Assembly (NCBI GenBank): GCA_003562195.1
Contig: PWVT01000151.1
Span: 1 to 34,567, forward strand
Reading direction: 5' to 3'
DNA: 34,567 bases
Source: Phycisphaeraceae bacterium
GTDB taxonomy: Bacteria; Planctomycetota; Phycisphaerae; Phycisphaerales; SM1A02
Made by a program: the position numbers and the translations under genes. The notes below the pieces were generated by a model. That model was not told the DNA's origin. It saw only the letters and a program-made list of their open reading frames with translations, and searched no databases. Positions 288 to 29,585 of the stretch are shown piece by piece; the first letter of the stretch is position 1, and every line of letters starts with the position of its first letter.

Positions 288-3200
288 TCAGTTTGCACTT
301 CCTCCTGCATCCTGCGAGCCCACGACCCTACTCATACTCGCACCCTGAGCGGTGAAGAGGGCACGGCTTGCGCGCGACACGCCGCTGCGCACATCATCCA
401 GCAGCGTATACGCCACGGGAATGGCAATGAGCGTTACGAGCAGCGAGAGACACAGTCCGCCGATGACGATCACCGCGACTGCGCGGCGCTCTTCCGCGCC
501 CGGTCCCGCGCCGATGACCAGCGGCGTCATGCCCGCGATCAATGTCAACACGGTCATCAGGATCGGACGCAAGCGATCGCGATTAGCTTGGATGATCGCC
601 TTCGTCCGTTCAACACCTGCCTGGCGCAGTTGGTTCATGTGATCAACTTGGAGAATCGCCTGCTTCATCGCCACGCCGAAGAGCACCAGCAGGCCAAGCC
701 CGGCATACAGGTTCAGCGTCTGGTCGAACAGCCACAGCGTCAGCAGCGCAAATGGAACGGTTAGCGGCACAGACAGCAACACCACCAGCGGCTCGGTCAG
801 CCGTTCGTAGGTCGCGGCGAGAATGATGTACACGAAGATCAGGGCAAGACCAACCGCCCAAAGAAACTCGAAGAACGTTCGTTCCAGTTCGCGCCCGCCG
901 CCGGAGGCGATCGTCGAGTATGTGGGCGGCAGGTTCATCTCATCCACCGCGCTGCGCAGGACATCCATTCGATCCGCAAGCGCGTAGCCCGGTGCCACAT
1001 TGGCCCGCAGACTGACCTGACGCTGGCGGTCGATACGGTCGATACGTGATGCCGAGATGCTCGGGGTCAGGTCGACAAGATTATCCAGACGCACCAGATT
1101 GCCGGCGCGGGTCGGTACATGGAGTGTGGCGATCGTCTCAGGTTCGTTGCGATACCCTTCATCGAGCCGTAGCTGCACATCGTATTCCTCGTTCACGTTC
1201 GGATCGCGGAAGCGCGAGACGCGCTCATCGCCGCCGACCATCAGGCGCAGACCGGTGGCGATATCCGAGACGGCAACATCCAGTCGCGATGCACGGTCGC
1301 GGTCGATCTCCGCCTGTAGTTCCGGCCGATCAAGTTGCAGTGTCGCATCAGCATCGACAATGCCAAGCTCATCGGAGCGATCGGAAAGTTCCCGTGCGTA
1401 CTCCGCAAGACGCTCAAGGTCCGGCCCCTGCAGGATGAAGTCGATCTCCGCGCCGGTCGCGCCGAACTGGAACCACCTGACGTTGCGGATGGAGACCCGC
1501 ACGTTCGGGTACTGCCGCATTCGTGACCGCGCCTCAGCCATGATGTCGCGTTGCGTGTAGTTGCCGCGAAACGCTGCGCCGGGATCACCCTGCAGCGTGC
1601 TGCGAATCAGCCGCGTGAGTGAGAAGCGGCGCGTATGATGATCGTCGATCTTCACAAACGCGCGCGTCTGGTTGAGCGAGCCGCTTGATGAGAGATGCGA
1701 TCCGACGGAGGCAAGGACCGTCTGCACGCCGTCGATGGACATCAGCTCGCGCTCCATCGCTGCCATCACTTCGTTCATCGCTTCAATGCTCACACCCTCC
1801 GGCGTGCGCAGAACGACCTCGAACTCGCTCTCATCAATGTTGCTCGGCGTCCACTCCTGCTGGACCCAGCCATAGATCGGTATGACCGATGCCATCACCG
1901 CGATCGCAACGACTGCTACGGGAAGGCGAACACGTACCGCCCACGTCAGCAGTGCAGTGTATGAGCGGTCAATCGGGCGGTAGAAGCCGCTGCGCGACTT
2001 TGGCGCACCATTGCCATGCGACTTCGCGCTCGCCAACATGCGCGAGCTCATCATCGGCGTGAGCACGATCGACACCACTAAACTGACCAGTACCGCCACC
2101 GCCGCGGTCAAACCGAACTGAAACAGAAACAGGCCGGAGATGCTTGACATGAACGAAACCGGCACGAAGATTGCCACCAGGCAGAGCGTCGTCGCCACCA
2201 CCGCGCCGCCGATCTCAGCCGTCGCTTCGCGGGCTGCGTCCATCGCGCTCATGCCCTTTTCTTCCACGAACCGGAAGATGTTCTCCAGAATCACCAGCGC
2301 GTTGTCGATCACCACGCCCACCATCAGCACAAGCGCAAGCATCGTCACGCTGTTGAGCGTGAAGTCCATCACCCACATCATCGCGAAGACGGAAATCAGC
2401 GACACCGGAATCGCCACGCCCGCGATGACCATCGACCGCCAACTGCGCATAAACAGCAGAATCACCAGACACGCCAGGATGCTGCCTGCGATGAGGTGCA
2501 TGTTGATCTCGCGCAGCGCTGCGTGGATGTAGTTCGATTGATCTCGCACAACCTCCATGCGCACATCACTCGGCAGTTGCCCGGCAACAACTGCCAGTTC
2601 ATCCTTCACCGCTTCAATCACTGCCACCGTATTTGCGCCGCTCTGCCGCAGTACCTCGATCGTCACCGCCGGCTCACCGTTCAACCGCGCGATTGAACGC
2701 TGTTCTTTCGTTCCATCTTCGACTCGGCCGATATCAGAAAGGCGAATTGGCACCCCGCCGCGCGTTTCGATGACCAGATCCTCAAACATTTGCGGGTCGA
2801 GCAGTCGCCCCATCGTGCGAAGCGTCTGCTCGCGCGGCCCCGCAGTCACATGCCCGCCGGGTATGTCGACGTTCTGAGCCAGCACCGCATCACGCACCAC
2901 CGTGATCGGCAGGTTGTACGCCGCCAGCCGATCGGGATCGATCCACAGATTGATTGCCCGTTCCACCCCGCCCACCACACGCACCTGCCCGACGCCGGGC
3001 GCCCGCTCGATGCGCAGCTTGACCGTTCGCTCCGCCAGCTCCGTCAGTTCGCGCAGCGACCGCTCGCCGTAGAGCGCAATTTCAATCACCGGCGAACCCT
3101 GCGTATCCACTTTGCTCACAATCGGCGGCTCAACCTCACGTGGCAGATCGCCCATCGCGGCCGACACGCGATCGCGCACTTCCTGAGCAGCAACATCAAC

Positions 3201-3503
3201 ATCCTCGCCCAATCCAAAGTTCATGCGAATGTAGGAGCGCCCCGGCGCGGAGATGGATGTCAGCTCATCGATCCCGCCGATGGTGTTGACCGCTTCCTCC
3301 AGCCGCTCAGTCACCTGCGATTCAACTTCAATCGCCGATGCGCCGGGCAGGTCCGTCGAAATCGTGATGCGCGGCATCTCCATATCGGGGAAGCGGTCCA
3401 CACCCAACTGCGAATACGCCGCCACACCGGCAACAAGCAGCGCGACAATCACCATCGAAGCGAATACCGGCCGGCGAATACAAAGGTCTGCAAATCGTCT
3501 CAT
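288..3503 (-). CDS. RND-family efflux transporter permease (AcrB/MexB-like)
   Basis: This 1071-residue inner-membrane proton-driven exporter is the full usual length for the family. TM1 lies at about residues 14-34, followed by a porter domain starting FPDMEMPRI. TM2-6 lie at about 340-480, a second porter half follows, and TM8-12 end the protein. In TM4 the proton-relay pair reads D400-N401 (AcrB has Asp-Asp). The TM10 lysine is present as K947 in VAMKQAIL. The first ATG at 3503 is used, and the N-terminus MRRFADLCIRRPV is typical. It starts 27 bases after the stop of the adaptor gene, so the two form one minus-strand operon, with the TolC-like gene divergent. The substrate cannot be told. 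The lack of the HME (metal) TM4 signature and the divergent pair leave it in the broad HAE group. Confidence 0.95.
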   Translation of the reverse strand: MRRFADLCIRRPVFASMVIVALLVAGVAAYSQLGVDRFPDMEMPRITISTDLPGASAIEVESQVTERLEEAVNTIGGIDELTSISAPGRSYIRMNFGLGEDVDVAAQEVRDRVSAAMGDLPREVEPPIVSKVDTQGSPVIEIALYGERSLRELTELAERTVKLRIERAPGVGQVRVVGGVERAINLWIDPDRLAAYNLPITVVRDAVLAQNVDIPGGHVTAGPREQTLRTMGRLLDPQMFEDLVIETRGGVPIRLSDIGRVEDGTKEQRSIARLNGEPAVTIEVLRQSGANTVAVIEAVKDELAVVAGQLPSDVRMEVVRDQSNYIHAALREINMHLIAGSILACLVILLFMRSWRSMVIAGVAIPVSLISVFAMMWVMDFTLNSVTMLALVLMVGVVIDNALVILENIFRFVEEKGMSAMDAAREATAEIGGAVVATTLCLVAIFVPVSFMSSISGLFLFQFGLTAAVAVLVSLVVSIVLTPMMSSRMLASAKSHGNGAPKSRSGFYRPIDRSYTALLTWAVRVRLPVAVVAIAVMASVIPIYGWVQQEWTPSNIDESEFEVVLRTPEGVSIEAMNEVMAAMERELMSIDGVQTVLASVGSHLSSSGSLNQTRAFVKIDDHHTRRFSLTRLIRSTLQGDPGAAFRGNYTQRDIMAEARSRMRQYPNVRVSIRNVRWFQFGATGAEIDFILQGPDLERLAEYARELSDRSDELGIVDADATLQLDRPELQAEIDRDRASRLDVAVSDIATGLRLMVGGDERVSRFRDPNVNEEYDVQLRLDEGYRNEPETIATLHVPTRAGNLVRLDNLVDLTPSISASRIDRIDRQRQVSLRANVAPGYALADRMDVLRSAVDEMNLPPTYSTIASGGGRELERTFFEFLWAVGLALIFVYIILAATYERLTEPLVVLLSVPLTVPFALLTLWLFDQTLNLYAGLGLLVLFGVAMKQAILQVDHMNQLRQAGVERTKAIIQANRDRLRPILMTVLTLIAGMTPLVIGAGPGAEERRAVAVIVIGGLCLSLLVTLIAIPVAYTLLDDVRSGVSRASRALFTAQGASMSRVVGSQDAGGSAN

Positions 3504-3530
3504 GGTCTGCTCATCAGCCGCACACGTTGC

Positions 3531-4751
3531 TCATTCACCAACGCGTACCGGGTCGCCCGATTGAATCGCGCCGGGCCTGCGAATCACTCGCTCATTGCCC
3601 TCCAGTCCATCCGTAATCTCCACCCACTCTTCGCCGCGCCGGCCGATCGTCACTGTCCTCGCCACCGCGTTGCCATCGTCGATCGTGAACACGCGATCCA
3701 CACCCGCAAAGCTCGCAATCGCATCACGCCGCACGGTCAGCGCATCCTCATCGTCACGCACGACAACTCGTCCGCGCACAAACGCGCCCGGCCGCAGTTC
3801 GCCCGGATTCTCCACATCCGCCTCCACGAGCAGTACTCGCCGCGCTTCATCAATCAGCGGGCTGAGTCGTGTCACCGTCGCTTCATACGTCTGCGGATCA
3901 TTCTCCACCGTGAAGCGAATCGATTGGCCGCGCGTAATCATCGTCGCTCTCCGTTCCGGCACTTCCACGCGCAATCGCAGGCGATCCGTACGAACCAGCC
4001 TCACGACAGGATCACCCGTGCTGAGGAACTCGCCCATTCCTGCGATGCGCTGCTCGACCGCGCCGTCAAACGGTGCTCTCACGACCGTATCGCGCAGCAT
4101 CTGCAGCGCGATCTCCAATGCGGCCTCGCGTTCCTGAAGGATCGCCAATCGATGCCGCGCCTCTTCCAGCGAATCTTCATACTGCGTCTGCGCCACTTCC
4201 ACCGCAATCTCAGCAGCGCGCAGTTCCGACTCCGGCGTCAAGCCGCGCTGCGCCAGCGGCTGCAACCTGGCCAGTTGCAACTCCGCCTCGCTCATTTGCG
4301 CCTTCGCCCGCTTGACGATGTTCAGTCGCGTCAGGTCCGAAGAAGGCGAATCTGATCCATCGGGGTTCATGCCCATGCGCACGCGCGCCTGCGCCAATTG
4401 TGCTTCGGCCTGTCGCACACCGAGTTCATAATCACGCTGCTCGATCCGCCCGATCGGCTGGCCCGCTGCCACCTCGTCACCAAGATCAACGTGCAACTCG
4501 GCCAGGCGCCCCGCCACCTTCACGCTTACCGTCGCTGCCTCCGACGCCGCCAGCGACCCGACCACTTCAACCGTTTGCTCCAGCGTGCGCCGCTCGACCG
4601 GCGAAACAGCCACGCTTCGCGCTTCGCCTTCTGTCCCCGCTGCGCCGCCCGGCTCGCCTGCTCCCTGTTGCGCAGCGCGCCAGACCCACACGCCGGACGC
4701 AACCACCGCCAGCATCACCGCTACCGTCACAATCCATTTCAGAGTTCGCAT
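3531..4751 (-). CDS. RND efflux periplasmic adaptor (membrane fusion protein, HlyD/AcrA type)
   Basis: This 406-residue adaptor links the inner-membrane pump to the outer-membrane channel. The N-terminus carries one hydrophobic anchor or signal (about residues 5-27) and a Gly/Ala-rich linker. The first half of the lipoyl-like sandwich follows (about 50-85), then an alpha-helical hairpin rich in Glu/Gln/Ala (about 90-205). The return strand contains VRAPFDGAVEQRI, the hallmark motif. A beta-barrel and membrane-proximal domain close the protein. ATG at 4751 is preferred over the in-frame TTG one codon earlier. It is first in the operon with the RND permease, and its promoter must lie in the divergent region 4752-5120. 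Confidence 0.95.
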   Translation of the reverse strand: MRTLKWIVTVAVMLAVVASGVWVWRAAQQGAGEPGGAAGTEGEARSVAVSPVERRTLEQTVEVVGSLAASEAATVSVKVAGRLAELHVDLGDEVAAGQPIGRIEQRDYELGVRQAEAQLAQARVRMGMNPDGSDSPSSDLTRLNIVKRAKAQMSEAELQLARLQPLAQRGLTPESELRAAEIAVEVAQTQYEDSLEEARHRLAILQEREAALEIALQMLRDTVVRAPFDGAVEQRIAGMGEFLSTGDPVVRLVRTDRLRLRVEVPERRATMITRGQSIRFTVENDPQTYEATVTRLSPLIDEARRVLLVEADVENPGELRPGAFVRGRVVVRDDEDALTVRRDAIASFAGVDRVFTIDDGNAVARTVTIGRRGEEWVEITDGLEGNERVIRRPGAIQSGDPVRVGE

Positions 4752-5120
4752 CAAAATCAGTTTCTCTCAGGATGTGTACATCAAACAGGCGCCTGCCCGC
4801 GACTATTCCCCATCTGACCCGCATCCGCCAGCAGACTATAGTACGAGCGCGCCCCGTTAAAAGTACAATCACGCCGTTCTCGATCGATCCGCTGCCTGCA
4901 CCGCAACACATCGCAGCGTGCCCGCTGCCAGCGTGAAGGACGATGCACTTGCGGTAAGCCGCTGTGATCGACCGAGTTTGAATTGATCACGATTGACGAG
5001 GACTTCGCGGCAAGTGGCCGCGCCTGGAGGGCTCAAGCGGAGTGCAGCATGGTGTGACCGACTCGTCAGCCCATCCTCGGCTTGCTGAAATGGATGTGCT
5101 CGCCGACGATGTGGGGCATC
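4752..5120. promoter_or_regulatory. Divergent promoter region between adaptor and TolC-like genes
   Basis: This 369-base gap separates two divergently read halves of one efflux system and must carry promoters for both. A TACTAT -10-like box for the minus strand is seen at 4838-4843 (ATAGTA on plus). A TACAAT -10-like box for the plus strand lies at 4864-4869. No convincing -35 partner was found for either, so these boxes are weak calls. No regulator gene adjoins the pump, so control is likely by a distant or global factor. In-frame TTG and ATG codons from 5082 could extend the TolC-like gene into this region. Confidence 0.35.
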
Positions 5121-6569
5121 ATGAGTACGGTTCATCATCATCATCGTTATCGCTTCCTATTCCATCATCGCGCGCTGTATGCGATCGGCCAGATCGTGGT
5201 GGTATGCGTGGTGGGATCTGTGGTGGGGCTTCAGGGATGCGCTGCGGTCCAGCCGCGGGAGTCGTTTGATGCGGTGGAGCGTCTGGTCAGCGAGCGATCA
5301 TCGCAGCGGGTCCATTGGCGCACCGGCGGCGAGGAGGATCAGGCGGTCGATGCGATGATCGCAGCGATGCTGGAGCAGCCGCTTGATGCTGATGCTGCGG
5401 CGCAGATTGCGCTGCTCAACAATCGCGCGTTGCAGGCGGTGTATGAAGACCTTGGCATAGCGCAGGCGGACCTTGTGCAGGCGGGGCTCCTCAGCAATCC
5501 GACACTTTCGGTGAGCGTGTTGTTTCCCACGGTGGGCGTTGAGGTGCGGCCGAACCTGGGCGTGGTGCAGCCGTTTCTTGATCTGTTCTTCATCCCGCTG
5601 CGGAAGAAGGTGGCGGAGTCATCGCTGGCCGCAGCGCAGCAGCGCGTGGCGGAGCAGGTGATCGCGCACGCAGCGCAGACGAAGGCGGCGTTCTACCGGG
5701 CGGCAGCGGACCAGCAGGCAGCGGCGATGCTGCGCGAGATCGCGAAGGCGACGGCGGAGTCGCTTGCGGATGTGCGGCAGCTGCGCGAAGCAGGGTCGGT
5801 GACCTATCTCGATCTGCGCAATATGGAAGCGCTGCACGAGCAGACGCGCATGGAACTGGCGCGGGCGGAAGCGGAGGTGACGATCAACCGCGAGCAGGTG
5901 ACGGCGATGATGGGGTTGAGTGGTGATGCGATTCATTGGGAGATGGATGCGCAGTTTGGTGAGGTTGATGCGCTGCCCGCGGATGACTTTGAGGGCTTGG
6001 TGGTGGAGGAGATTGAAGAGATGGCAGTGGAGCGGAGTCTGGCGCTGGCGTCACTTCGGGCGCAAATTGATGCGGCTGGGGCTGATCTGGGGATTGCGGG
6101 GGCATCGGCATTGCTGCCGTCGGCGAATCCTGGCGCATCAGCGCAGCGGCGGAGTGGCGAGTGGTTTGTCGGGCCGTCACTTGTGTTGCCGCTGCCGATT
6201 TTCGATCAGGGCCAGGCGGTAACGGCGGCGGCGGAGGCGCGGTTGCGTCAGCAGATGATGCTGCACGATGCGGCTGCTGTTGAAGTTCGCTCCACAGCGC
6301 GGACGGCGGCGACGCGAGTGAGGATCGCGCGGCAGACGGTCGAGCATTACCACGATGTGCTCCTGCCGATGCGCGAGGAGATGTATGAGGACAGTCTGCT
6401 GCAGTTTCATGCGATGAACATCAGCATGTTGGACTTGATCGTTGTGCGGCAGCAGCAACTGGCGACGAAGCGCGAAGCGATCGAAGCGGCGCATGAGTAT
6501 TGGCTTGCGCAAACGACGCTGGAGCAGGTGCTGGCGGGCAGTTCGCCGGGGGCTGCTGCGCAGCGATGA
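5121..6569 (+). CDS. TolC-like outer-membrane efflux protein (OEP family), putative lipoprotein
   Basis: This 482-residue channel component exports pump substrates across the outer membrane. The N-terminus is polar with four consecutive His. A hydrophobic segment (about residues 18-37) ending in a lipobox-like GLQGC follows, so lipid attachment is likely, as in the OprM/NodT class. Two OEP repeats follow. The Ala/Gln/Glu-rich helices have the typical AQADLVQAGLLSNPTLS in the first half and an FDQGQ stretch in the second. The start is uncertain: in-frame ATG codons also occur at 5094 and 5109. I chose 5121 because it gives a compact signal peptide and has a GTGGGG run just upstream. It diverges from the adaptor/permease operon, which supports one tripartite pump. 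Confidence 0.92.
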   Translation: MSTVHHHHRYRFLFHHRALYAIGQIVVVCVVGSVVGLQGCAAVQPRESFDAVERLVSERSSQRVHWRTGGEEDQAVDAMIAAMLEQPLDADAAAQIALLNNRALQAVYEDLGIAQADLVQAGLLSNPTLSVSVLFPTVGVEVRPNLGVVQPFLDLFFIPLRKKVAESSLAAAQQRVAEQVIAHAAQTKAAFYRAAADQQAAAMLREIAKATAESLADVRQLREAGSVTYLDLRNMEALHEQTRMELARAEAEVTINREQVTAMMGLSGDAIHWEMDAQFGEVDALPADDFEGLVVEEIEEMAVERSLALASLRAQIDAAGADLGIAGASALLPSANPGASAQRRSGEWFVGPSLVLPLPIFDQGQAVTAAAEARLRQQMMLHDAAAVEVRSTARTAATRVRIARQTVEHYHDVLLPMREEMYEDSLLQFHAMNISMLDLIVVRQQQLATKREAIEAAHEYWLAQTTLEQVLAGSSPGAAAQR

Positions 6570-26440: not shown

Positions 26441-27625
26441 ATGTCCCTGCCGCGCGTGCTGCATTTGATTGATCCGTATGTTCCCGGCAGTCCCGATCTG
26501 CGCGATGCCTCGGGCGGCTGCCCCTGCACGATGCGGCTCATCGCAGAAACGACAAAGCGCATCACCTCATGGGCGCATGATGTGCTCGTTCTCGGCACCA
26601 TTCAAGATGTGAAGCTGGCACAAGACTGCGGGCTTGATGTTGCAGGACAATACTGTCCACCCCGGATTTTGCCGTTGGCAGGACGCCGTGGCCTGGTGCG
26701 CGTGATGCAGCGCCTGGCCAACACTCGCGGTGTATGTCATTTGATCCACGGCTGGACGCCGCGAGCAGCCATGTACGCATCCATCACATTGCCGAATATC
26801 CCGCGCGTGTGCAGTGTGCACATGGGCCTCTCGCACAAGGATGTCGGTGGTGTCTCCAACACTGCCGCGCGGGCCATGTTTACCCGCCGCGCCACGCCGG
26901 TTCTCGCGGAATCCCAGGCCGTCAAACGGCAGGTATCATCTGCCGAGATCGACCAGCCGAACATTCATGTGATACCACCCGGCGTAGATCCAGCGTCCAT
27001 CAACACTGACGATCGTCAAGTGGTGCGCACGCGATGGGGCGTGACGGATACGACATATGTCATCGGCGCACTGGCTGAGCCAGCCAGTTCGTCTGATGCT
27101 CGAATTGCAATCCGCGTGATTTCCAGTTTGCGGCTGACGGGGCGCAATGTGCGAATGGTCATGCATCACGACGCGTCACGACGCGCTGATGCAAAGTGGT
27201 GGGCGAAGAAGCTCGGCTATGAGGACTTGTTGATTTTCGATGATCTTGCCAGCCAGCCGTGGCGAATTGCATCTGCACTTGATGCTGTTTGGGTTACAAG
27301 TGCCTCACACAATGCGTCGGTGCGGCCGATGAGCTGCTTGCCCCTCCTCTGGGCCATGGCTGCGGAACTGCCGATCGTCGCGGAAGATGCCGGCGCAACA
27401 CGCGAGTTTTTTACAGAACTGCAGCATGGGCTGATTGCACCGCCGGGCGACATACCCGCGATACTCGACCGCTTGGCTCATGTGTACGATGAGCGAGAAT
27501 GGGCTGCATCAATGGCTTGCTCAGCGGGCAACTTTGTGCGAGAGCACGCTTCGCCCCAGCAGTTCGCGCAGGTGCTCAGTGCGCTGTATCCCCGGCACGC
27601 CACAACGAAAACAGTCAGTGGCTGA
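26441..27625 (+). CDS. Glycosyltransferase, GT4 family
   Basis: This 394-residue cytoplasmic enzyme would transfer a sugar from a nucleotide-sugar donor to a surface polysaccharide, glycolipid or small acceptor. The N-terminal half begins RVLHLIDPYVPGSPDL and carries the Rossmann-like acceptor domain. The C-terminal half has NIHVIPPGVD, the GT-B linker signature. It also has a donor-site region LPIVAEDAGATREFF and GLIAPPGDIPAI in place of the more usual E-x7-E arrangement. It begins about 80 bases after the second lipoprotein gene. Donor and acceptor cannot be predicted. Confidence 0.87.
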   Translation: MSLPRVLHLIDPYVPGSPDLRDASGGCPCTMRLIAETTKRITSWAHDVLVLGTIQDVKLAQDCGLDVAGQYCPPRILPLAGRRGLVRVMQRLANTRGVCHLIHGWTPRAAMYASITLPNIPRVCSVHMGLSHKDVGGVSNTAARAMFTRRATPVLAESQAVKRQVSSAEIDQPNIHVIPPGVDPASINTDDRQVVRTRWGVTDTTYVIGALAEPASSSDARIAIRVISSLRLTGRNVRMVMHHDASRRADAKWWAKKLGYEDLLIFDDLASQPWRIASALDAVWVTSASHNASVRPMSCLPLLWAMAAELPIVAEDAGATREFFTELQHGLIAPPGDIPAILDRLAHVYDEREWAASMACSAGNFVREHASPQQFAQVLSALYPRHATTKTVSG

Positions 27626-27668: not shown

Positions 27669-28088
27669 ATGAGCAGCACGTTCATACGCCTGATGCTCGC
27701 GATGGCCATGGTGCTTTGGTCGCCTGCATGGTGCTGTTGTGCACTACGAGCTGCGGCAGCGCATGCGCTCGACGAAGCGACCTCCGAAGGAATCATCGGC
27801 TCATGCTGCTCACGAGCGCCGGCCCCACCGCAGCAGCGCTCATGCTGCGATGACGGTGAGGAATCCACCTGCCAATGTAACGATCGACCGAGCGAACTCA
27901 ATCGTCTCGACACTGCACCGAAACTCGTAGCACCATCGCTGGAGCGCATGGCGGTGGTGGAGACCGTTTTCATTCTCTCCGCTGATGATCAGCAAATCTC
28001 GGTTCGCGTTCGAGATGCAGCGTACCGCCGTTGCCATCCACCGCCGTCGAAAACACTTCTTGCACAACACTGCCTGCTTTTGGTCTGA
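27669..28088 (+). CDS. Cysteine-rich exported protein, unknown function
   Basis: This frame encodes 139 residues. A hydrophobic N-terminal segment (LMLAMAMVLWSPAWCCCALR) looks like a signal peptide or anchor. The rest carries eleven cysteines, many in runs: CCC near residue 23, then two CC pairs with Asp/Glu/Ser around (GSCCSRAP, RSCCDDGEES), CQC, and single Cys near HPP and at the end. This is consistent with metal or thiol chemistry. It lies about 95 bases before an HMA-domain lipoprotein and then an outer-membrane barrel gene. Short Cys-rich proteins beside copper or mercury genes occur in planctomycetes, as I recall. The annotation is otherwise open. Confidence 0.6.
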   Translation: MSSTFIRLMLAMAMVLWSPAWCCCALRAAAAHALDEATSEGIIGSCCSRAPAPPQQRSCCDDGEESTCQCNDRPSELNRLDTAPKLVAPSLERMAVVETVFILSADDQQISVRVRDAAYRRCHPPPSKTLLAQHCLLLV

Positions 28089-28183
28089 TTGATCGCTGCG
28101 CACGCGTATCGCGGTGCCGGCTTCGCCGGTGCTGATGTGTTTTGTTTTGAAATCAATCATCGTAGATAAAGAAAGGCAGTGCC

Positions 28184-28537
28184 ATGCGCATTGTGACTTT
28201 GACATTCGCTTCGTGTGCACTCGCTGGTCTAATAGCTGTGACCACGGGCTGCGCCTCAAATGAAACCTCACGGGTTGACCGCTCCACCTTCGAACAGCAG
28301 GGCCCCATTGAATCAGAAACGGCCACGCTGGTAGTGCATGGGATGGGCTGTCCGCTGTGCGCGAACAACGTGGACCGGCAACTCCTCGCCGTGCCCGGTG
28401 TGACTGATGTCAGCATCGATCTGGGCTCCGGCTCAGTGACGGTCTACCTTGCTGAGTCGAATCGACCCACCCGTTCGCAGTTAGCCCGCGCGGTCGATGA
28501 AAGTGGCTTTACACTGGTCGCGCTCAGTACGCCATAA
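28184..28537 (+). CDS. Heavy-metal-associated (HMA) domain lipoprotein
   Basis: This 117-residue protein has a signal peptide with lipobox VTTGC and Cys23, a Ser/Glu-rich linker, and one ferredoxin-like HMA domain (about 46-115). The metal-binding loop is GMGCPLCANN with C56 and C59, the classic GMxCxxC site seen in MerP, CopZ and P-type ATPase N-domains. AAAGG lies eight bases before the ATG. Export of the HMA domain to the periplasm or outer membrane would make it a scavenger or chaperone of Cu, Hg or related ions, more like MerP than CopZ. It sits between a Cys-rich exported protein and an outer-membrane barrel. Confidence 0.88.
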   Translation: MRIVTLTFASCALAGLIAVTTGCASNETSRVDRSTFEQQGPIESETATLVVHGMGCPLCANNVDRQLLAVPGVTDVSIDLGSGSVTVYLAESNRPTRSQLARAVDESGFTLVALSTP

Positions 28538-28575
28538 TCCACAGTCCATGACTGATGCAATTGGAGAACAACACC

Positions 28576-29433
28576 ATGCACACGCTCAGAACACTGACAT
28601 GCCTCGCCGTGGCGATCACCGCTGCGGCCATACCGTTTGACCAAGCGGTCGCACAGGAGGCGATCAACAGCCCGGCCGCCACGCAGCCATCCACCGGACG
28701 TTGGGTGGTTCGTGGACAATTTCGACATCTCGATGCGCGCGAAAGCCCACGCACAGGCGATGAGCGCATTCGCAGAACCACGCAGAATCTGTCGATCGCA
28801 TATGGGCTGCGCAGCAACCTCTCGCTGACAGCGGAAGTCCCCTTTCAACAGCAGCGGCTGCGCGATGGCGAAACCGGCAACGTCAAGCGCGATTACGGAA
28901 TCGGCGATGTCACTGCGCAAGTCAAGTGGCGCATCCATCAGCACGATTTCGGCCCGATCGACACCTCACGGTTCAGTCTCATTGGTGGCGTGCAACTCCC
29001 CACGTTTATGCGACCGTTCAGCACCGAGTCAGTCAACCCGATGCTTGGTGGTGTGTACACTCATGTACAGGGCCTTCACGGGTTCAACGCGTCGGCTATC
29101 TTCAAGCTCAACACCGGCACCGGCACGCGCAACAACATCGGTGGCGGTGACGGCAAGGCCGATGCTCTGTTCTATGACGCCTCGTACCTCTACCGCATCT
29201 CACCGGCGACATACTCACCGGAAACCAGCGGCGGAGCCCTCTACGGCGTGCTGGAACTCAACGGCCTGTACGAAACGAATGGCGACAATGAATTGTTCCT
29301 CTCGCCAGGAATCATGTACGAGGCCCGATCATGGACAGTCGAGGCCAGTGTGCAGATTCCTGTCTGGCAGGACGTTGATCGTCGGCCGGAAACGCGGCTT
29401 GTCGGCGTCGTTGGCGTGCGCCTGCTGTTTTAG
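28576..29433 (+). CDS. Outer-membrane beta-barrel protein (transporter/phenol MetA-like family)
   Basis: This 285-residue protein has a cleavable signal peptide (about residues 1-26, ending AVAQEA). Alternating beta strands follow throughout and end with a C-terminal phenylalanine (VGVVGVRLLF), typical of outer-membrane barrels. The layout, with an N-terminal SIAYGLRSNLSLTAEVPF and YGIGDVTAQVKWR, matches the phenol_MetA_deg/transporter family. ATG at 28576 is preferred to an in-frame codon seven earlier because it opens the signal peptide. The gene starts 38 bases after the HMA lipoprotein gene, so they are likely co-transcribed. A channel for metal or small organic solutes is an inference. 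Confidence 0.85.
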   Translation: MHTLRTLTCLAVAITAAAIPFDQAVAQEAINSPAATQPSTGRWVVRGQFRHLDARESPRTGDERIRRTTQNLSIAYGLRSNLSLTAEVPFQQQRLRDGETGNVKRDYGIGDVTAQVKWRIHQHDFGPIDTSRFSLIGGVQLPTFMRPFSTESVNPMLGGVYTHVQGLHGFNASAIFKLNTGTGTRNNIGGGDGKADALFYDASYLYRISPATYSPETSGGALYGVLELNGLYETNGDNELFLSPGIMYEARSWTVEASVQIPVWQDVDRRPETRLVGVVGVRLLF

Positions 29434-29502: not shown

Positions 29503-29585
29503 GGGCGAATACCTAAGTGGCCAAAGGGGACGGGCTGTAAACCCGTTGGCGTACGCCTTCGCAGGTTCGAATCCTGCTTCGCCCA
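29503..29585 (+). tRNA. tRNA-Tyr (anticodon GTA)
   Basis: It is 83 bases. The acceptor GGGCGAA pairs with TTCGCCC, followed by discriminator A. The anticodon arm ACGGG-CTGTAAA-CCCGT has anticodon GTA. A class II variable arm (GGCGTACGCC) is present, as expected for tRNA-Tyr in bacteria. The T arm reads GCAGGTTCGAATCCTGC. CCA is not encoded. A strong hairpin follows at 29593-29625. Confidence 0.96.

Follow-up and report, generated by a model that had tools for sequence, protein, structure and literature searches.

A candidate CutF-like metal-sensing leader ahead of a conserved HMA-lipoprotein and outer-membrane-barrel gene pair in Phycisphaerales

Why should a small, putatively exported cysteine-rich protein be encoded directly ahead of an HMA-domain lipoprotein and an outer-membrane barrel? 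The three genes lie in the 34,567-nucleotide stretch analysed here (the window, G000:C274), which is one contig of an incomplete Phycisphaeraceae genome (2.75 Mb in 306 contigs, 79% complete), and a first-pass annotation had read them as a putative trio of proteins trafficking metal outside the inner membrane. The three ORFs are in order on the plus strand (Table 1), the first encoding a product with eleven cysteines, as described, and a hydrophobic N-terminus, and the statement that no P-type ATPase, MerA or CusA is adjacent held for the flanking genes scanned (0/4); by Pfam, two of these on the left are unmatched, one is a glycosyltransferase and one an acetyltransferase. The glycosyltransferase gene (26441-27625) is upstream of the trio, and tRNA genes at 29503 and 29668 lie 3' of the barrel gene. 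Rfam at gathering scores returned three tRNAs in the window and no riboswitch or other known RNA. The window also carries an RND pump (ACR_tran) with an HlyD_D23 gene (288-4754, minus strand) and an OEP gene (5082-6569, plus strand), an efflux set that sits 21-24 kb from the trio. A literature search, limited to the library searched, gave no titles on this gene set or leader in Phycisphaerae.

Table 1. Position of genes and sequence elements at the locus, numbered from the first nucleotide of the window
Feature	Position	Strand	Comment
Cys-rich leader gene, putatively exported product	27669..28088	+	139 aa, 11 Cys; proposed CutF-like metal-sensing leader
Cys cluster CC...CC...CxC, codons 46-70	27804..27878	+	last pair (C68, C70) starts 72 residues before the C-terminus
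Conserved C-terminal motif SKTLLAQHCLLLV, last 13 codons	28047..28085	+	adjoins the stop; PPP ends one residue before the motif
Anti-Shine-Dalgarno CACTGCCT inside terminal leader codons	28068..28075	+	fully complementary to the HMA-gene Shine-Dalgarno region
Leader-HMA intergenic region	28089..28183	+	95 nt
10-bp hairpin, then T-rich stretch	28112..28134	+	terminator-like; this locus only, 1/27
Shine-Dalgarno region of the HMA gene, AGGCAGTG	28174..28181	+	complementary to 28068-28075
HMA-domain lipoprotein gene	28184..28537	+	117 aa; HMA profile, lipobox, CPLC motif
Lipobox Cys23 of the HMA lipoprotein	28250-28252	+	VTTGC, by eye
Metal motif CPLC (Cys56, Cys59) of the HMA lipoprotein	28349-28360	+	
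Outer-membrane beta-barrel gene	28576..29433	+	285 aa; predicted 12-strand, FapF/COG4313 fold; in-frame ATG at 28555 would give 292 aa

The assignment of the second gene was borne out: its HMA domain (PF00403) scores 45.1 bits against a gathering cut-off of 24.8, with a lipobox (TTGC) and the metal-binding CxxC present in GMGCPLC. C56 and C59 are invariant among 24 aligned HMA lipoproteins, and the strict lipobox pattern is found in 23 of 32 relatives tested, the other nine having LP[AG]C (seven) or different variants (two). The window protein has the HMA profile and CPxC motif in common with MerP and CopZ; it differs from them in being lipid-anchored, in having no adjoining MerT, MerA or CopA, and in scoring below their cut-offs (25.8 versus 92.55 bits for MerP, TIGR02052; at best 43.8 versus 85 for the CopZ families). 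Outside the alignment stands an HMA lipoprotein gene with an in-frame TGA at the position of the second motif cysteine (CPF-TGA; L076:2296-2700, minus strand, genome G056); given that G056 also encodes a tRNA-Sec, selenocysteine is a likely metal ligand in this putative protein. Two matches to the SelB profile in G056 were rejected as SelB, being EF-Tu (L249) and IF-2 (L257) by Pfam.

The barrel of the first-pass annotation likewise stood, since AlphaFold2, supplied with a 32-sequence alignment, gives a 12-strand barrel with a mean pLDDT of 89.9. The modelled protein is of the FapF/COG4313 fold, matching FapF (5o65) with a Z of 23.5 (rmsd 2.5 over 224, 12% identity) and the COG4313 channel (4rl8) with a Z of 23.1 (rmsd 2.6 over 227, 8% identity); the 12-strand fold is common to these channels and the predicted barrel, which differs from them in its low identity and in its HMA-lipoprotein gene partner. 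The window protein itself matched nothing in Pfam, Phenol_MetA_deg (PF13557) included, and nine of the 32 aligned relatives matched Phenol_MetA_deg (best 8.5e-13). Its closest named relatives (58-59% identical) come from Phycisphaerales metagenome-assembled genomes. Four sequence matches in the PDB (E 0.58-0.83) were treated as chance.

Among 101 genomes of the same family, own genome included, the barrel was matched in 34, giving 38 strong loci (E <=7.3e-23) once two weak loci had been dropped. In 32 of these 38 the barrel gene is immediately preceded, on its own strand, by an HMA-lipoprotein gene, the two lying -4 to 247 nt apart with the starts as called; chance adjacency is no concern, because the HMA profile matches at only four places in the genome of the window. 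Two of the six barrels without the pair begin at a contig end (L072 and L093), and the remaining four (L085, L086, L087 and L090) form a divergent clade with HMA proteins near all of them. A leader-like ORF was defined as one of 90-210 aa with a hydrophobic N-terminus, at least 5 cysteines after residue 15 and a stop 40-420 nt before the HMA core. Such an ORF was present in 24 of 32 testable loci versus 20 of 1410 control windows drawn from both strands of the same loci; L058 was not testable, starting at the contig start. One of the 24 (L061) has a different Cys-rich protein, following a MerR-type gene. L062, L063 and L088 fail the automatic test and have Cys-rich frames visible by eye, and at L068, L070, L083, L091 and L092 the HMA and barrel genes are present with no leader found. 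Beyond the family, the pair occurs in three further families of the order (L229-L237). It also extends to another class, in which one genome (L238) adds a leader-like ORF to the pair and L239 lacks the leader. By eye, a Cys-rich frame is present in L229, L232, L234, L235, L237 and L238 and absent from L230, L236 and L239. The trio therefore co-occurs in other planctomycetes, and the three genes are a conserved unit.

Several variants of this arrangement were seen. L090 has a double-HMA protein near its divergent barrel (by Pfam), and a similar protein was recognised by eye in L085. Pfam also identified a single frame fusing MerB, MerT and HMA (L086:4538-5803, plus strand), separated from the barrel downstream by 2 kb that include another ORF. 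A MerT-HMA fusion was likewise identified near the divergent barrel of L087 (8781-9746, minus strand); the barrel family may also serve mercury operons. Upstream of the barrel, L061 and L240 encode a small exported Cys protein of another type, whose motifs resemble DCPG..CPLTGE.C. A homologue of the leader lies just 3' of the L061 barrel (G012:C21:85750-86199), where it presumably heads a second operon.

A profile (A3) built from 15 leaders matched in 74 of 301 genomes of the order, with 88 places listed, and in eight of 392 genomes drawn from the phylum, all eight belonging to the same order. We examined 69 leader loci (63 matches from 60 stretches plus six loci, one weak match on the other strand of L164 being left out), of which four reach a contig end within 510 nt and 65 have enough sequence. 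Recognised metal genes lie within 6.5 kb downstream in 27 of the 65, comprising CusA-type RND genes (18), multicopper oxidases (6) and YHS-like genes without either (3); a further 37 have OEP/HlyD/MacB-type efflux genes without a recognised metal gene, as HlyD with ABC and MacB/FtsX (34) or as OEP or HlyD alone before the contig end (3). These neighbours were named from seeds by Pfam and NCBIfam (OEP, HlyD_D23, MacB_PCD/FtsX, CusA/CzcA, Cu-oxidase): the RND seed scores above cut-off for TIGR00914 CusA/CzcA, the oxidase seed comes nearest to copper_res_A without reaching its cut-off, and the seed taken to be YHS-like has no profile match. Outside the fetched pair loci, a barrel is found within 6.5 kb downstream in one of the 69; at L137 the leader is followed by a multicopper oxidase plus the HMA and barrel genes. 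The Cys-rich gene thus often opens efflux and metal operons and is not reserved for the HMA/barrel pair. Among the 65 loci, L154 alone shows neither recognised efflux nor metal genes; the ORF that follows there looks methyltransferase-like by eye.

The Cys-rich protein of the window matches no Pfam or NCBIfam family. Its cysteines are at positions 22-24, 46-47, 59-60, 68, 70, 122 and 135; its N-terminus has a predicted helix at residues 3-17, and the model is mostly disordered and of low confidence (pLDDT 56.6). Six to 16 cysteines and a hydrophobic N-terminus are present in the 33 leaders collected, and the leader evolves as a translated protein, with dN/dS of 0.32-0.83 in seven pairs of relatives, the value of 0.83 resting on seven changes. 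When 100 leaders were thinned to 73 so that none shared 50% identity or more across the final 60 residues, positions -13 to -1 were strongly conserved (mean z 18.8) and positions -60 to -21 were near background. The same was true of 28 leaders picked by position upstream of the HMA gene alone, which avoids profile-picking bias (mean z 7.2 versus 0.47). Since the conserved Leu, Arg and Gly residues of the C-terminus are encoded by several synonymous codons, it is the peptide that is conserved and not the RNA alone. Alanine at -4 is encoded by GCG in 18 of 18, with other Ala codons common elsewhere in the same genes; shared descent or an RNA constraint may explain this uniformity.

The distance from the last Cys pair to the C-terminus is also constrained, with a median of 72 residues (quartiles 68-75, range 23-80, n=67). 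In 24 leaders whose starts are defined, counting neither pairs that fall less than 40 residues from the end nor five leaders in which the start or frame is doubtful, this distance has an sd of 3.9 (median 73), against 20.1 for the distance to the start. A diproline is found within -32 to -9 in 46 of 73 leaders, compared with 19 of 73 in an equal upstream stretch, and within the last 15 residues in 17 of 73. A proline stall motif is thus enriched, not universal, and was rejected as a common signature of the leader.

Pairing between the terminal leader codons and the next Shine-Dalgarno (SD) sequence was assessed by a duplex test that sets the SD of each locus against those of other loci, with control segments and row and column correction. 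In its last 27 nt, the leader pairs with the SD of its own locus beyond what composition accounts for (residual -3.15, sd 0.69, 0/3000 swaps, n=21). Moving upstream, the adjacent segment pairs weakly (p 0.05, or 0.015 by helix length), and the two beyond it give no signal. Against shuffled segments, the mean z of the duplex is -1.04 at -36 to 0 (n=21). In the other leader operons, whose start codons were guessed by SD score for this test, the last 27 nt gave p values of 0.005 (energy) and 0.06 (helix length; n=31), with no significant pairing upstream of them. The helix comprises eight Watson-Crick pairs in the window and ten in both L059 and L067, its letters differing between loci; in four of 23 loci (L064, L069, L071 and L088) no helix exceeds four Watson-Crick pairs.

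Downstream of the leader stop, the sequence forms more stable structure than its dinucleotide shuffles (z -1.9, n=23), unlike random stretches (z -0.03, n=69; p 7e-9), and the same holds in the other operons (z -1.7, n=38, versus -0.1 for random stretches, n=72); the intergenic region of the window taken alone is not significantly structured (z -0.87). Part of this signal comes from inverted repeats, because the antisense strand is structured too (-1.45). General burial of the SD in the intergenic fold was rejected, and since mean pairing of the SD zone is not above shuffles (z -0.19, n=23), the evidence for the anti-SD is the duplex test. A conserved intrinsic terminator between leader and HMA gene was also rejected as a general mechanism: among 27 loci one was found in the window alone (1/27), in the other operons terminators number two of 38 against one of 72 random stretches (p 0.27), and the window holds two terminator-like sites against 2.0 in shuffles.

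Short leaders with these properties have precedents. PMC9973294 describes CutF of Rhodobacter capsulatus (cutFOG) as a nascent peptide that is exported and carries both a Cu motif and, at its C-terminus, a proline motif, the cutO SD being hidden in a stem-loop that follows; in the same paper, CutF-like genes mostly precede copper genes, for example OEP, CusA and CusB, and their Cys/His sites vary across clusters. The window leader falls within the CutF-like filters given there (<150 aa, PP in the last 15 residues, same-strand gene within 1000 nt), with 139 aa, PP at -15/-14 and 95 nt. Set against that description, it resembles CutF as a short, putatively exported Cys leader with a stall-like C-terminal region, a structured intergenic region and a hidden SD for the next gene, and its family also precedes OEP and CusA-type genes; it differs in its cargo (the HMA lipoprotein and barrel), in ending on a motif of the type LLxxHC(A/L)L(I/V)V-stop, in having no CxxxC copper motif and in placing the SD partner within its own last codons.

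CruR/DUF2946 of Bordetella, as presented in PMC9426467, has CXXC and RAPP at conserved spacing, controls an outer-membrane TonB-dependent transporter via Rho and has a few homologues in Planctomycetes. The window leader is alike in heading an outer-membrane-barrel operon, in a Cys motif at conserved spacing from the C-terminal motif and in a poorly structured product followed by an intergenic region (162 nt in CruR, 95 nt here); it is unlike CruR in that its barrel is not TonB-dependent and its terminator is not conserved. RAPP was found in none of the last-60-residue stretches of 73 leaders, and the window leader has no CxxC. DUF2946 membership was rejected on profile scores (PF11162): the window leader has no match, and two of 15 members match below cut-off, the better with 19.0 versus 23.7 bits. 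Arrest peptides of the uA_LPPP kind lie upstream of secA in Phycisphaerales (PMC10987492). The same paper reports stalling of the Phycisphaerales uA_LPPP peptide on Bacillus subtilis, and its authors note that no experiment had demonstrated arrest by CruR or CutF. The likeness to uA_LPPP is in the order, a putative signal sequence and the C-terminal PPP of the window leader and L071; the difference is that SecA and not metals are regulated there, and that LPPP is the motif there, the conserved part here being the last 13 residues. On paper, the Phycisphaerales design would be that of a metal-sensing leader of the CutF/CruR type, without RAPP and below the DUF2946 cut-off.

Some loci carry a regulator gene in the place of the leader. 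A CsoR-type gene is directly before the HMA gene in L231, where it was recognised by eye alone, and in L233, where the protein scores best against copper-sensing RicR (89 bits, below the cut-off of 175); the MerR-type regulator of L061 is best against mercury-resistance MerR, below cut-off, with CueR and ZntR close behind. Their presence supports both a regulatory role for the leader position and a soft-metal signal. Of the soft metals, copper seems the likeliest; two observations point to mercury instead, namely that the L061 regulator is nearest to mercury MerR and that two divergent barrels (L086 and L087) are beside MerB/MerT-HMA genes. As to direction, we infer that the barrel is slightly more likely to transport outward, from the efflux pumps and multicopper oxidases that neighbour the leader family and from the CsoR at the same position. 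Inward transport has in its favour that CruR controls a TonB-dependent transporter and that divergent barrels adjoin MerT. MerT is an uptake protein, and the mercury genes of L086 and L087 would suggest an inward path there.

The Cys-rich gene looks like a regulatory leader because its conservation is limited to the C-terminus, its Cys-to-stop spacing is fixed, it heads other operons and a CsoR-type gene can replace it; on this sequence evidence the first gene probably encodes a regulator and not a trafficking protein. The envelope metal-trafficking trio of the first-pass annotation thus survives in part. A conserved, metal-related envelope set stands, comprising a Cys-rich protein whose N-terminus is hydrophobic, together with the HMA lipoprotein and the predicted barrel. 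The Cys-rich protein as a third dedicated trafficking protein does not, given the features just listed and that the same family precedes CusA-type, MacB-type ABC and multicopper-oxidase operons which, but for one, have no barrel.

We lean, with modest confidence, towards a CutF-like leader that controls the envelope pair in response to copper or another soft metal, in a metal-responsive operon of Phycisphaerales. At low metal, the leader would be finished and the ribosome would depart, leaving the last codons to pair with the SD and the HMA gene poorly translated. The Cys cluster, about 72 residues upstream, would be just out of the ribosome tunnel and translocon while the last codons are translated, and a metal captured by this cluster, Cu(I) being likeliest and another soft metal possible, would prolong a pause of the ribosome at the terminal codons. 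The paused ribosome would cover the codons that hide the SD, allowing the HMA lipoprotein and then the barrel to be translated. The lipoprotein, anchored probably at the outer membrane, would bind metal by its CPxC motif and exchange it with the FapF/COG4313-fold barrel for passage across the outer membrane, slightly more likely outward. The conserved gene set and C-terminus, the fixed spacing, the complementarity of leader and SD and the occurrence of the leader before other operons are results of sequence comparison; stalling, the sign of the response and the metal are drawn by analogy from CutF, and we infer the contact of lipoprotein and barrel as well as the direction of transport.

A mature periplasmic metal buffer or chaperone, working with the HMA lipoprotein and barrel, would fit the hydrophobic N-terminus and the cysteine content of the collected proteins, the weak purifying selection on the protein and the efflux or metal genes that adjoin 64 of the 65 leader loci. 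We nevertheless think such a role unlikely: conservation is confined to the C-terminus and the Cys-to-stop spacing, with the middle of the protein at background, the terminal codons are complementary to the next SD, and the family also precedes operons without the pair. That complementarity bears differently on the proposal that the protein has both roles, binding metal while its gene is simply coupled to the next, so that any ribosome at the end opens the SD and no metal-dependent arrest takes place: the leader-SD helix alone would give such coupling, and the C-terminus could then be a degradation or sorting tag, as a nonpolar C-terminus is cited as a degradation signal of CruR in PMC9426467. 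Here too the probability seems low, as coupling leaves the fixed Cys-to-stop spacing unexplained. Secretion of the Cys-rich peptide through the FapF-like barrel, as an extracellular metallophore loaded by the HMA lipoprotein, draws on the best structural match of the barrel being a polypeptide exporter; we regard it as very improbable, the COG4313 channel matching equally well and a barrel lying downstream of so few of the leaders outside the fetched pair loci.

Beyond the controlled pair, the favoured CutF-like reading can be extended, more tentatively, to a new family of metal-sensing nascent-chain leaders that is common ahead of Phycisphaerales efflux and metal operons. Such a family would combine a new arrest motif ((S/T)LLRxHCALIV-stop and variants), a Cys sensor about 72 residues back, in or just outside the translocon, and an anti-Shine-Dalgarno in its own last codons, and at this locus would control an undescribed outer-membrane metal path of HMA lipoprotein and FapF-fold barrel.

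If this is true, metal sensing by a nascent exported peptide would also be a widespread switch in a phylum distant from the Proteobacteria in which CutF and CruR were studied, with a different terminal motif and a measurable geometry, namely a fixed Cys-to-stop distance and an anti-SD in the last codons, which would make the question of metal sensing testable by comparison. The HMA lipoprotein and FapF-fold barrel would then be a new candidate for the movement of metal across the outer membrane.
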